Origin: a virus
DNA: 20,842 nucleotides
IMG/VR virus record: IMGVR_UViG_3300031951_001455
Coordinates: 1-20,842 of that record
Strand: one strand, 5' to 3'
Shown: positions 1,148 to 20,557 of the stretch, piece after piece
Layout: the number at the start of each line of letters is the position of its first letter
Numbering within the stretch: the stretch's first letter is position 1
Program-made: the position numbers and the translations under genes
Notes under the pieces: generated by a model
The model's database searches: none
The model's input: the letters and a program-made list of their open reading frames with translations, nothing else
What the model was told of the DNA's origin: nothing

Positions 1148-1220
1148 GTTAGTAACCACTCACATACTGTTGTTCCTATACAACACACCCCCTTGACAAT
1201 CCCTCCAACCATGTTATACT
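1148..1220 (+). promoter_or_regulatory. Promoter A with two upstream dyads
   Basis: Dyad 1 is GTTAGT-AACC-ACTCAC (1148-1163). Dyad 2 is TGTTGT-N6-ACAACA (1168-1185). Seven bases (CACCCCC) then lead to the -35 TTGACA (1193-1198), a 16-base spacer and the -10 TATACT (1215-1220). Transcription would start near 1227 and drive the acidic 66-aa protein and the GIY-YIG gene. The dyads lack a following U-run, so they look like protein-binding sites and not a terminator. The same module recurs at 4311 and 20472, and near 1766. Confidence 0.8.
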
Positions 1221-1245: not shown

Positions 1246-1446
1246 ATGCCTAGATTTTCTGATGACCTAAATGACAACCTGCGTGATTTTGCCGAAGATG
1301 CTGAAGCCATGGGTTTCGATGAGCTTGTGAAGCAGATTGAGGATGATGAGGATGACGATATGATGTTAGCACTAGGCCCTCGAGCTTTTGGTCCTGATGC
1401 TGGTGACGATGATTGTGATGGTCTATTCTATTGGGATTTGAAGTAA
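1246..1446 (+). CDS. Very acidic small protein, 66 aa
   Basis: ATG 1246 is chosen over an in-frame TTG at 1228 because GGAG (1237-1240) lies five bases upstream and the TTG lies at the expected transcript start. The sequence (MPRFSDDLNDNLRDF...) is rich in Asp/Glu, with runs such as EDDEDDD and GDDDCDG, and has no transmembrane segment. Acidic phage proteins of this size include DNA mimics and host-enzyme inhibitors, but nothing here proves that role. It is the first gene after a strong promoter, which fits an early host-takeover gene. Its stop overlaps the next start (TAATG). Confidence 0.75.
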   Translation: MPRFSDDLNDNLRDFAEDAEAMGFDELVKQIEDDEDDDMMLALGPRAFGPDAGDDDCDGLFYWDLK

Positions 1447-1765: not shown

Positions 1766-1851
1766 GTGAGTGCATACTAACCAAATAGCTGTTGTATCGG
1801 CGCAACAACCCACCAAATAATGCTTGCTTTCCTGGCCGACCGTGTTAATAT
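1766..1851 (+). promoter_or_regulatory. Promoter B with two upstream dyads
   Basis: This lies in the 136-base gap between the GIY-YIG gene and the next gene. Dyad 1 is GTGAGT-GCAT-ACTAAC (1766-1781). Dyad 2 is TGTTGT-ATCGGC-GCAACA (1790-1807). A weaker -35 TTGCTT (1824-1829) and -10 TAATAT (1846-1851) follow with a 16-base spacer. The gap between dyad 2 and the -35 is 16 bases against 7 in promoters A and C, close to one extra helical turn. A short GATT repeat (1861-1872) precedes the ribosome site. Confidence 0.65.
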
Positions 1852-4138: not shown

Positions 4139-4314
4139 CAAGTGATTTAATTCAAACTCGGCGGCAGTATCGTGCGGTCTATACGAACTGGCCATCCGAA
4201 TTAATTGTAGCGCACCTGATTGTCCTTGATTGCAAGGTCGAGGAAATGAAATCGGATGATATGATTGAGGCAAGGCGCCTGATGGATGAAAAAATGCCTG
4301 CCTGGAAGAGGTAA
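4135..4314 (+). CDS. Hypothetical helical protein, 59 aa
   Basis: ATG 4135 is preferred because it forms the usual ATGA overlap; an in-frame ATG at 4123 would give four more residues and neither has a clear ribosome site. The protein (MTSDLIQTRRQYRAVYTNWP...) is soluble and helical with a basic N-terminal part and a C-terminal DEKMPAWKR. No family recognised. The stop codon lies inside the first dyad of promoter C, so the operon ends exactly where the next regulatory module begins. Confidence 0.6.
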   Translation: MTSDLIQTRRQYRAVYTNWPSELIVAHLIVLDCKVEEMKSDDMIEARRLMDEKMPAWKR

Positions 4315-4384
4315 GTGACCACTTACTTACTGTTGTATGGAAACAACACACCCCCTTGACATTTCTGCCTTGTTGGTGTATAAT
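4311..4384 (+). promoter_or_regulatory. Promoter C: two dyads plus perfect sigma70 consensus
   Basis: Dyad 1 is the perfect palindrome arm pair GTAAGT-GACC-ACTTAC (4311-4326). Dyad 2 is TGTTGT-ATGGAA-ACAACA (4331-4348). CACCCCC then joins to TTGACA (4356-4361), a 17-base spacer and TATAAT (4379-4384), the full sigma70 consensus. The dyad-to-dyad and dyad-to-promoter spacing is identical to promoter A. It drives the lipoprotein gene at 4418. A perfect promoter with upstream dyads suggests either early expression or control by a bound regulator. Confidence 0.85.
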
Positions 4385-4417: not shown

Positions 4418-4960
4418 ATGTTTAAAAAATTGTTTATTATCTCCTCTGTTGTAATGTTGTCTGCTTGTAGTTCCGTACCGTTGCAAAAAACGGAAGATGC
4501 ACCTACGATTAAAACCGAATTTCTCGGTGGTTCAATTAAGGTGTCTTATGATAAATCGACCGGCGAAGTAAAGCTTCTTGAATCGATGGCAACGGCAAAG
4601 CTTGTTAGCACTCTGCCAAATGCCGTTGATGAATCGTTTATCGTGGCTACTTTGAGAGCACGGAAGCAAATCGTTGAGTTTATGAAAACGGAAATCGAGT
4701 CTGAGAAATTCAGCGAAGCCATCTTTGATACCTTGCAAAAGTCCGAAGTTGCAAACAAAGACAAAAGCTCTGAAGTGAATCACAACATTTCCCAGGCTGT
4801 CAGGCAGAGTATTCGCCAGAAATCAAATGGCATTCTGAAAGGCACCTATGTTTCAGAAAAAGTTTACGATGATTCGACCAAAACGGTTCGTGTGATTGTT
4901 CGGTCAAGTGACCAAGATGTTGAGGTTGCAAAGCGTGTTTCTCGTATGATGGGTAACTAA
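4418..4960 (+). CDS. Phage-encoded lipoprotein, possibly LPP20-like, 180 aa
   Basis: ATG 4418 is chosen over TTG 4400 because it begins the signal peptide and follows GAAAGG. MFKKLFIISSVVMLSAC is a type II signal peptide with lipobox LSAC (Cys17), so the mature protein should be lipid-anchored at the envelope. The mature part has a beta-like start, a long helix with ARKQIVEFMKTEIESEKF, and a C-terminal GILKGTYVSEKVYDDSTKTV strand pair ending in DVEVAKRVSRMMGN. That layout resembles LPP20/FlgO-type domains, with modest confidence. The next exported gene starts one base after its stop, so the two are probably partners. Confidence 0.8.
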   Translation: MFKKLFIISSVVMLSACSSVPLQKTEDAPTIKTEFLGGSIKVSYDKSTGEVKLLESMATAKLVSTLPNAVDESFIVATLRARKQIVEFMKTEIESEKFSEAIFDTLQKSEVANKDKSSEVNHNISQAVRQSIRQKSNGILKGTYVSEKVYDDSTKTVRVIVRSSDQDVEVAKRVSRMMGN

Positions 4961-13737: not shown

Positions 13738-13796
13738 CCTGCCTGTTGTTACGGTACAACAGGCAGGTTGACATAGATACTATATTATGATAGGAT
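13738..13796 (+). promoter_or_regulatory. Promoter E: 12-bp-arm hairpin adjoining the -35
   Basis: The arms CCTGCCTGTTGT (13738-13749) and ACAACAGGCAGG (13756-13767) pair perfectly around a 6-base loop TACGGT. The core TGTTGT-N6-ACAACA is the second dyad of the repeated module. TTGACA (13768-13773) follows at once, and TAGGAT (13791-13796) is a plausible -10 with a 17-base spacer. No U-run follows on the plus strand. On the minus strand an A/T run (13730-13736) follows the hairpin, so it could also end antisense transcripts. It drives the 358-aa gene. Confidence 0.75.
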
Positions 13797-13826: not shown

Positions 13827-14903
13827 ATGGCAAGAATTATTGATGCGAATTTGGCTTTTGTTGGCAACGAACCAAAATTTTCGGTTGAATTGTCATCAAT
13901 GGATATGATTAAAACTTTGTCGTGGTATTCTCAAAACAAAGATACAAAGGATGCCGTTAAGTGGGCAACCGAGTATTTCAAAAAGAAACAGAAGCTTGAT
14001 GTTTCTTCCGTAATTAAAAATTATCCATCAACATTTGGTTTTATCTGTCGCATTGTTTTAAATGGCGGCCAACTTTGTATGAAAGATCAAATTTGGTTCG
14101 ATGATATTGTTAAAAAAATAAAACAACAATTAAACGAACCTGTTATTGTTGAAGATAAACCAAAAGCGGTTGTCATTAATATACAAGAGCGTATTCGAGC
14201 CAAGGCCGATGATTGTATTGCTGAATTAGAAGGCCAAGTAGATGATTTAATCTCATCTGGTTTTTCTGCCAATTCACAACCATATGCCGTGTTTCACACT
14301 CTGAGTATTAAAGATGCTCAGACAAAGTTTATTGTTGAATGGGCTAAAGGTAAAAGAATTGAGTTTGATGAAATAATGAATACAGATGATAAAGACTTAA
14401 AAGAAGCGTATTCAAACTTCACCAAACCACAATTGAAGAAGATGATTGCGTATTTTGACCAAGTGATTCTGGATTGTCAAAAGGTTTCTGGTGAATCTAC
14501 CAAATCACGCAAGCCACGCAAGCGCAAGGCCAAGTCGCCTGAACAATTGACGGCGAAGATGAATTTTATGCCTGAGTTTAAAGAGTTGAAGTTGACATCC
14601 GTAAAACCTATTGATATAATTGGTTGTATGGCATTATGGGTGTATAATACAAAGACCCGTAAACTTGGTGTGTATCATGCTGAAGATGCTGGTGGTCTAT
14701 CAGTAAAAGGTTCATCGATTCTGAATTTCGTAGAAAGTAAATCAATTCAGAAAAAGTTGCGTAAGCCAGATGAGATGTTGCCTGAAGTATTAAATGGTGG
14801 TAAAGTATTTCTTCGTAATGTGATGGAGAGTATTCGTGCTGTTGACAGTAAGTTGACAGGTCGTATTAATGCAGATACTATTTTATTGAAAGTGACAAAA
14901 TGA
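13827..14903 (+). CDS. Conserved phage hypothetical protein, 358 aa
   Basis: ATG 13827 is chosen over GTG 13797 because GGAG (13815-13818) lies upstream and the promoter E start falls near the GTG. The N-terminal domain (residues 1-110: MARIIDANLAFVGNEPKFSV, then LSWYSQNKDTKDAVKWATEY) is helical. A linker with a basic cluster (STKSRKPRKRKAK, about residue 230) joins a C-terminal domain (KPIDIIGCMALWVYNTKTRK, GLSVKGSSILNF). No enzyme motif is seen. I recall unnamed relatives in T4-like phages. A DNA-binding or replication role is guesswork from its place upstream of RNase H. Confidence 0.7.
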   Translation: MARIIDANLAFVGNEPKFSVELSSMDMIKTLSWYSQNKDTKDAVKWATEYFKKKQKLDVSSVIKNYPSTFGFICRIVLNGGQLCMKDQIWFDDIVKKIKQQLNEPVIVEDKPKAVVINIQERIRAKADDCIAELEGQVDDLISSGFSANSQPYAVFHTLSIKDAQTKFIVEWAKGKRIEFDEIMNTDDKDLKEAYSNFTKPQLKKMIAYFDQVILDCQKVSGESTKSRKPRKRKAKSPEQLTAKMNFMPEFKELKLTSVKPIDIIGCMALWVYNTKTRKLGVYHAEDAGGLSVKGSSILNFVESKSIQKKLRKPDEMLPEVLNGGKVFLRNVMESIRAVDSKLTGRINADTILLKVTK

Positions 14904-20309: not shown

Positions 20310-20472
20310 AGAAGTGCTACTAAAACAAATAGCTGAATTAGAAACAAAGATTGCTACTGATTCTGCTGAAAAAGAAATTTTAGAAAAAGAATTGAATCGC
20401 CTTAAACTCGCTGAATATGAAGAAGATTGGCGAGAAACTCTAGAACAGCGCCTCCTACAAGAGGGATGTTAG
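20299..20472 (+). CDS. Coiled-coil small protein, 57 aa
   Basis: ATG 20299 lies inside the end of the upstream gene, with GGAG (20285-20288) before it. The sequence (MSYREVLLKQIAELETKIAT, then SAEKEILEKELNRLKLAEYE) has clear Leu/Ile heptads. A final EGC could allow disulfide or metal links. The TAG stop overlaps the start of dyad 1 of promoter D, so this is the operon's last gene. Confidence 0.65.
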   Translation: MSYREVLLKQIAELETKIATDSAEKEILEKELNRLKLAEYEEDWRETLEQRLLQEGC

Positions 20473-20557
20473 TTAGTACTCACTAACTTATACTGATTTA
20501 TACTGTTGTAAAAAAGCAACAGGGGGTATTGACATTTGGCCTCAGCCGTGGTATAAT
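20472..20557 (+). promoter_or_regulatory. Promoter D: two dyads plus consensus sigma70
   Basis: Dyad 1 is the perfect palindrome arm pair GTTAGT-ACTC-ACTAAC (20472-20487). An 8-bp direct repeat TTATACTG (20488-20495 and 20498-20505) follows. Dyad 2 is CTGTTG...CAACAG (20503-20522). TTGACA (20529-20534), a 17-base spacer and TATAAT (20552-20557) complete a full consensus promoter. The gap between the two dyads is 16 bases against 4 in promoters A and C, close to one helical turn longer. It drives the gene at 20588. Confidence 0.85.

Follow-up and report, generated by a model that had tools for sequence, protein, structure and literature searches.

What do the paired inverted repeats that stand upstream of several sigma70-type promoters in an uncultivated phage do, and what might bind them? 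The question is raised by an IMG/VR record of 20,842 bases, which was analysed in its entirety and is referred to here as the window. Judged from its sequence, the window is part of the genome of a T4-like phage; its T4-type RNase H is closest to that of Methylophilales phage Melnitz (Kyanoviridae; 50%), 34 of its 48 ORFs are common to the relative G034, and the larger relatives (G001, G004, G034 and G038) are themselves T4-like, with equivalents of gp23, gp17, gp43, gp45, gp55 and gp33 recognisable among them.

A dyad and promoter scan found the four modules of the original prediction in place at 1148, 1766, 4311 and 20472 (modules A to D, Table 1), each with a strict dyad 1 (GTNAGT-N4-ACTNAC), a strict dyad 2 (TGTTGT-N6-RCAACA) and -35 and -10 boxes; modules A and C do share the same dyad-dyad and dyad-to--35 spacing. 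The list of four was short by one, since a fifth promoter with dyad 2 (module E, 13744-13796) had been missed. Strict dyad 1 (two registers at 20468/20472 included) and strict dyad 2 were each observed five times in the window, and the numbers expected for the strict dyads from 2000 first-order shuffles are 0.014 and 0.016; the full composite of dyad 1, dyad 2 and promoter occurs four times in the window and in none of the 2000 shuffles.

Table 1. Dyads, promoters and downstream genes of the five modules, in window coordinates.
Feature	Coordinates	Strand	Sequence or description
Module A dyad 1	1148..1163	+	GTTAGTAACCACTCAC
Module A dyad 2	1168..1185	+	TGTTGTTCCTATACAACA
Module A promoter (-35/-10 at 1193/1215)	1193..1220	+	TTGACA-16-TATACT; dyad 2 gap 7 bp
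First gene after A	1246..1446	+	66-aa acidic protein, no assigned function; 88% identical in G038
Module B dyad 1	1766..1781	+	GTGAGTGCATACTAAC
Module B dyad 2	1790..1807	+	TGTTGTATCGGCGCAACA
Module B promoter (-35/-10 at 1824/1846)	1824..1851	+	TTGCTT-16-TAATAT (weak); dyad 2 gap 16 bp
Module C dyad 1	4311..4326	+	GTAAGTGACCACTTAC
Module C dyad 2	4331..4348	+	TGTTGTATGGAAACAACA
Module C promoter (-35/-10 at 4356/4379)	4356..4384	+	TTGACA-17-TATAAT; dyad 2 gap 7 bp
First gene after C	4418..4960	+	180-aa protein, no assigned function; lipoprotein-like start (by inspection)
Module E dyad 2 (12-bp arms, without dyad 1)	13738..13767	+	CCTGCCTGTTGT-TACGGT-ACAACAGGCAGG; core 13744-13761
Module E promoter	13768..13796	+	TTGACA-17-TAGGAT; 6 bp from dyad-2 core
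Gene after E	13827..14903	+	phrog_11903, no assigned function
Module D dyad 1	20472..20487	+	GTTAGTACTCACTAAC; second register fits 20468-20483
Module D dyad 2	20504..20521	+	TGTTGTAAAAAAGCAACA
Module D promoter (-35/-10 at 20529/20552)	20529..20557	+	TTGACA-17-TATAAT; dyad 2 gap 7 bp
Gene after D (cut by contig end)	20588..20842	+	Family with a weak SWIM-like zinc motif at the end of its longer relatives

The pair also recurs far above chance outside the window, and the module is widespread among uncultivated phages of the T4-like type. Dyad 2 stands exactly 7 bp in front of TTGACA in at least 118 IMG/VR stretches; in nearly all of these, among the matches listed, a TATAAT-like box lies 16-18 bp after TTGACA. 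At least 117 stretches have both dyads within 30 bp. In 50 contigs dyad 2 was found at 206 sites and its reversed pattern at 2. To avoid selection by motif, loci were also recruited by the gp88 protein only (80 loci with 65 distinct upstream regions). A perfect dyad 2 was present in 29 of these 65 regions and a dyad 2 with at most one mismatch in 39, compared with 2.6% and 3.9%, respectively, of random segments of the same loci, and a perfect dyad 1 was present in 8 regions compared with 0.5% of random segments. Of 48 loci recruited by the 88-aa protein w88, discussed below, 42 have a perfect dyad 2 no more than 4.6 kb upstream, usually at CobS or CobT. Dyad 2 is absent from 12 cultured phages, including the nearest ones by RNase H, gp88, phrog_11903 or w88, and a blastn search of the consensus against cultured phages returned nothing useful. 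Matches to both dyads inside coding regions of some large contigs (L156, L157, L159) were rejected as chance-like, there being no promoter behind them.

Across the relatives dyad 2 recurs in a form somewhat looser than first described, as the inner base may vary in either arm (Y/R) and the pattern becomes TGTTGY-N6-RCAACA. Of 313 promoter-linked sites, 137 have T/A as the inner pair, 95 have T/G, 62 have C/A and 12 have C/G, and the bases flanking the arms pair at a rate of 0.268, the chance expectation being 0.262. Since the unpairable C-A combination is common and the flanks pair at chance, dyad 2 is a DNA palindrome of the half-site TGTTGY and not a hairpin. An RNA hairpin acting as a terminator or attenuator before the promoter is suggested by the terminator-like look of module E with its 12-bp arms, but the frequent C-A inner pair is what DNA half-site symmetry predicts, and with flanks that pair at chance and no U-run behind dyad 2 at the promoter-linked sites we regard this explanation as extremely improbable. 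Module E is a case of its own, having a TACGGT/TTCGGT dyad centre and an AT-rich stretch that follows on the minus strand; given its long arms and this centre, it could double as a terminator of upstream transcripts. Dyad 1 has a core of about GTTAGTRN-NYACTAAC, and 79 composites give a consensus of about TAAGTTAGTRN-NYACTAACTTA. A single-register 20-bp palindrome fits dyad 1 in the window; it was rejected for the wider set, which has a 16-bp core with AT-rich extensions.

The geometry of the sites was analysed with 657 distinct sigma70-like promoters from loci recruited by proteins only. Dyad 2 lies within 90 bp upstream of 132 of these (20%) and within 90 bp downstream of 2. Its distances to the -35 box cluster at 6-7, 13-17, 27-28 and 36-38 bp, with a circular resultant of 0.57 at a period of 10.5 bp versus 0.29 at 7-8 bp, and the spacing pattern is unchanged in the whole 4.56 Mb. 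In the same 4.56 Mb the gap from dyad 1 to the -35 box peaks at 27-29, 37-38 and 46-48; dyad 1 is found mostly 3-6, 10-14 or 24-26 bp upstream of dyad 2 (gap peaks 4, 13-14 and 24). Homologous modules vary in similar steps: that of module A in the close relative L151/G038 has 10 bp more between the dyads and 9 bp more before the -35 box, and that of module D in L240 has exactly 10 bp fewer between the dyads. Module B is almost identical in G038, weak core promoter included, and the arms of module E are kept in G034 and L240. With a 17-bp spacer, a gap of 7 places the centre of dyad 2 at -51.5 and a gap of 16 at -60.5. Module B, whose -35 box is nine bases further from dyad 2 than those of A, C and D, has a distance that is also found repeatedly in relatives and belongs to the class one turn out.

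Dyad 2 is, in other words, a dimeric-type site found upstream of the -35 box at helix-phased positions. Sites on one face at several whole-turn distances above intact -35 and -10 boxes form a class-I-type activation pattern. This type of activation is established for CRP, which in class I promoters occupies TGTGA-N6-TCACA at -61.5, -71.5 and -82.5. Like the CRP site, dyad 2 is a palindrome on an 18-bp scale with an N6 centre that occupies one helical face at successive turns; it differs in its half-site, in its main centre near -51.5 and in having no recognised host regulon. The conserved sites of dimer type tied to sigma70 promoters are thus borne out, and the phasing suits activator sites better than random operators. 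The reading that we favour, and consider rather likely, is that the modules mark a dedicated class of sigma70 promoters in a T4-like phage. A dimer would bind the core site dyad 2 upstream of the -35 box, always on the same helical face, with its centre near -51.5 or farther away by about one, two or three turns, and would probably activate the host RNA polymerase by a class-I-like contact; dyad 1 would be an optional site on the same face for another dimer, which probably cooperates with the first.

Activation is preferred here to repression on the basis of site position, and there is a counterpoint to it: many of the core promoters are close to consensus and might need no activator. The dyads might then be operators at which a phage repressor shuts off early promoters later, or silences them initially, by looping or bending from upstream, and the nearest predicted folds of the candidate factor w88 are of the PadR/MarR type, many of which are repressive. 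Repressor sites usually overlap the core promoter. The sites described here hardly ever overlap the -35 or -10 box and lie upstream, helix-phased to three or four turns, and module B is conserved despite its weak core promoter (TTGCTT/TAATAT), so we consider a repressor unlikely, though it is the foremost competitor of the activator.

Several known systems invite comparison. Like the modules, the P2/P4 Ogr-Delta promoters have a palindromic activator site just above the promoter in a TGT-N12-ACA frame, the site there being centred near -55. TGTTGY-N6-RCAACA does include TGT-N12-ACA, and late promoters with TGTTGT...ACAACA are reported from Ralstonia P2-like phages (PMC5694545, PMC3931495), which would make the modules P2-type late promoters under an Ogr/Delta zinc-finger activator. 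However, a profile search for Ogr_Delta (PF04606), with a positive E. coli control, found it in 0 of 30 module-bearing contigs, and most module sites have TTGACA-16/17-TATAAT rather than a poor or absent sigma70 core, whereas the late promoters of phiRSY1 have no sigma70 promoter (PMC5694545). The modules further differ from the Ogr-Delta system in their T4-like phage context, their optional second dyad and their several helix-phased positions, and a P2-type identity is scarcely credible. The middle promoters of T4 under MotA/AsiA are similar in that an element of a T4-like phage sets some sigma70 promoters apart ahead of the late phase, but the modules are palindromes above a consensus -35 box while the MotA box replaces the -35; MotA_activ (PF09114) was found in 0 of 19 module-bearing contigs (T4 control, 3.2e-63). 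Nor are the modules T4 late promoters: they have TTGACA and TATAAT, and the late box TATAAATA recognised by gp55 is absent from the window and lies elsewhere in the genomes of the relatives. We infer that the modules act before the gp55-dependent late phase.

The factors that bind the dyads are probably encoded by the phages. A host transcription factor exploited by the phages is conceivable, as the binding factor is still only a candidate and dyad 2 is common to two phage lineages, the T4-like one and that of G003, G005, G006 and G007. The module is, however, nearly absent from host genomes: a scan for dyad 2 with TTGACA and a -10 box (spacing 7 and consensus -35 only) gave 11 hits in 84,980 bacterial and archaeal species, nine of them in Planctomycetota, which makes a host factor improbable. 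Seven of these nine have surrounding sequence in common and seem to represent a single, unrelated orthologous site; a host-regulon origin of the module found no support. In the Planctomycetota MAGs (L124-L129 and L132-L134) the dyad TGTTGTTTTTTTGCAACA lies 7 bp before a TTGACA-like box, and in L126 the gene behind it is a histidine kinase close to a sigma-factor gene; for at least seven of the nine MAGs this is probably a single bacterial operator that has been conserved.

The target genes would be a minority of the non-late genes. At 300 collected modules the next gene is a CobT-like metallopeptidase in 41 cases, CobS in 20, gp88 in 20, a SWIM-like protein in 19, a 110-aa protein in 13 and phrog_11903 in 8, with others making up the remainder. 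Modules thus stand repeatedly before the same genes (CobT-like peptidase, CobS, gp88, SWIM-like and phrog_11903): both dyads are present in 17 of the 19 recorded members of the SWIM-like family of module D, and the phrog_11903 homologue in G004 likewise has dyad 2 upstream. Among sigma70-like promoters before genes, those with a module are 3 of 4 in the window, 6 of 10, 7 of 14, 4 of 17, 4 of 23 and 7 of 25 in relatives, and 0 of 27 in Melnitz, so that they are a minority in most contigs. The idea that one regulator controls all early genes is not supported, as just a subset of sigma70-like promoters has the sites and dyad 2 stands alone in phages without dyad 1; the paired layout, present at four sites of the window, proves across the relatives to be dyad 2 with dyad 1 as an optional companion. 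Two factors are therefore likelier than one.

Three further features lie near module A. A perfect 21-nt direct repeat, AATGTCCCGATCAGTAAATTT, is found just 5' of it at 1072-1092 and 1121-1141 (spacing 49); in G038 and G034 the 70 bases 5' of the homologous site showed no such repeat. A small zinc-ribbon-like protein (768-1073) is encoded directly upstream and is kept in G001, G034, G035 and G038. By inspection, a 48-aa ORF at 581-727 has a C-x-C ... C-x2-C layout like that of Bfd-type [2Fe-2S] proteins; Pfam gave nothing above cut-off for it.

Comparison of the contig proteomes pointed to two winged-helix families, w88 and w141, and no family follows dyad 1 cleanly. The 88-aa w88 (phrog_4973) is often encoded just behind CobS in a dyad-2 operon and is present in both dyad-2 lineages and in every one of the 15 contigs of 120 kb or more (in G055 as a partial match only). 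The structure predicted for it has a clear winged-helix fold (mean pLDDT 81), and the nearest folds are PadR/MarR and Stf76; the resemblance to PadR/MarR regulators is limited by weak structural E-values (best 3.6e-3), by the lack of a sequence match among solved structures and by the putative nature of the operator. The presumed recognition helix begins with N-[PV]-[ST/A] in most dyad-2 phages and differs in those free of dyad 2, a post hoc observation. Melnitz, HTVC008M, Mosig, DLP_6 and G046, which have no dyad 2, also encode w88 in diverged form, and in several phages w88 lies outside any dyad-2 operon. Autoregulation of w88 through dyad 2 was rejected as a general rule, as it holds in some operons and others have their own promoter. 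We nominate w88 as our best guess for the dyad-2 factor, an assignment that we hold with less than even confidence.

The second family, w141, has a linker rich in Lys, Ala and Pro and an acidic tail that is conserved (ELEVTEVTE), matches no Pfam family above cut-off and is encoded near gp88 in most loci (L020:6952-7374, L322:9998-10456 and about 50 more). A search of five cultured phages that lack dyad 2, and of G046, did not find it in any of them. It was rejected as the dyad-1 factor, being also present in phages without dyad 1, and as the dyad-2 factor, since it was not detected in G003/G005/G006/G007, a lineage that has dyad 2. Of the two families, w88 is the better match for dyad 2.

The mRNA leader of w88 contains an H-type pseudoknot just before the ribosome-binding site. 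In 36 aligned leaders (alignment A5: L441:5919-6003, L451:5919-6003, L473:686-770 and 33 others) it has 14 pairs, with 99.6% of cells paired and compensatory changes in 13 pairs; none of 500 shuffles scored as high, and slid versions reached 35-46%. Rfam gave no match at the leader in the few loci searched. The pseudoknot is possibly a translational control element or a riboswitch.

Put together, and as a tentative scheme that we think more apt to need revision than not, a large group of T4-like phages lacking MotA would use pseudoknot-led w88 at dyad 2 to switch CobT/CobS, gp88, SWIM-like and other genes, while a second phage factor at dyad 1 would tune a subset of them. The module belongs to a known kind, that of activator-dependent phage promoters; a literature search for either dyad as a phage promoter element found none, P2-type late promoters being the nearest. 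T4-like phages of marine cyanobacteria and methylotrophs have been reported to be without identifiable middle promoters, which the authors of the Melnitz study suggest may be too divergent for detection (PMC9004378). The module may replace the middle promoters that these phages were thought to lack. It is a concrete candidate for the missing level of control in uncultivated relatives of marine T4-like phages, one that comes with defined sites and a defined set of genes, a rule for helix phasing and a candidate factor, and it offers a way to predict which genes are co-regulated, and which transcription units they form, in metagenomic phages of unknown function.
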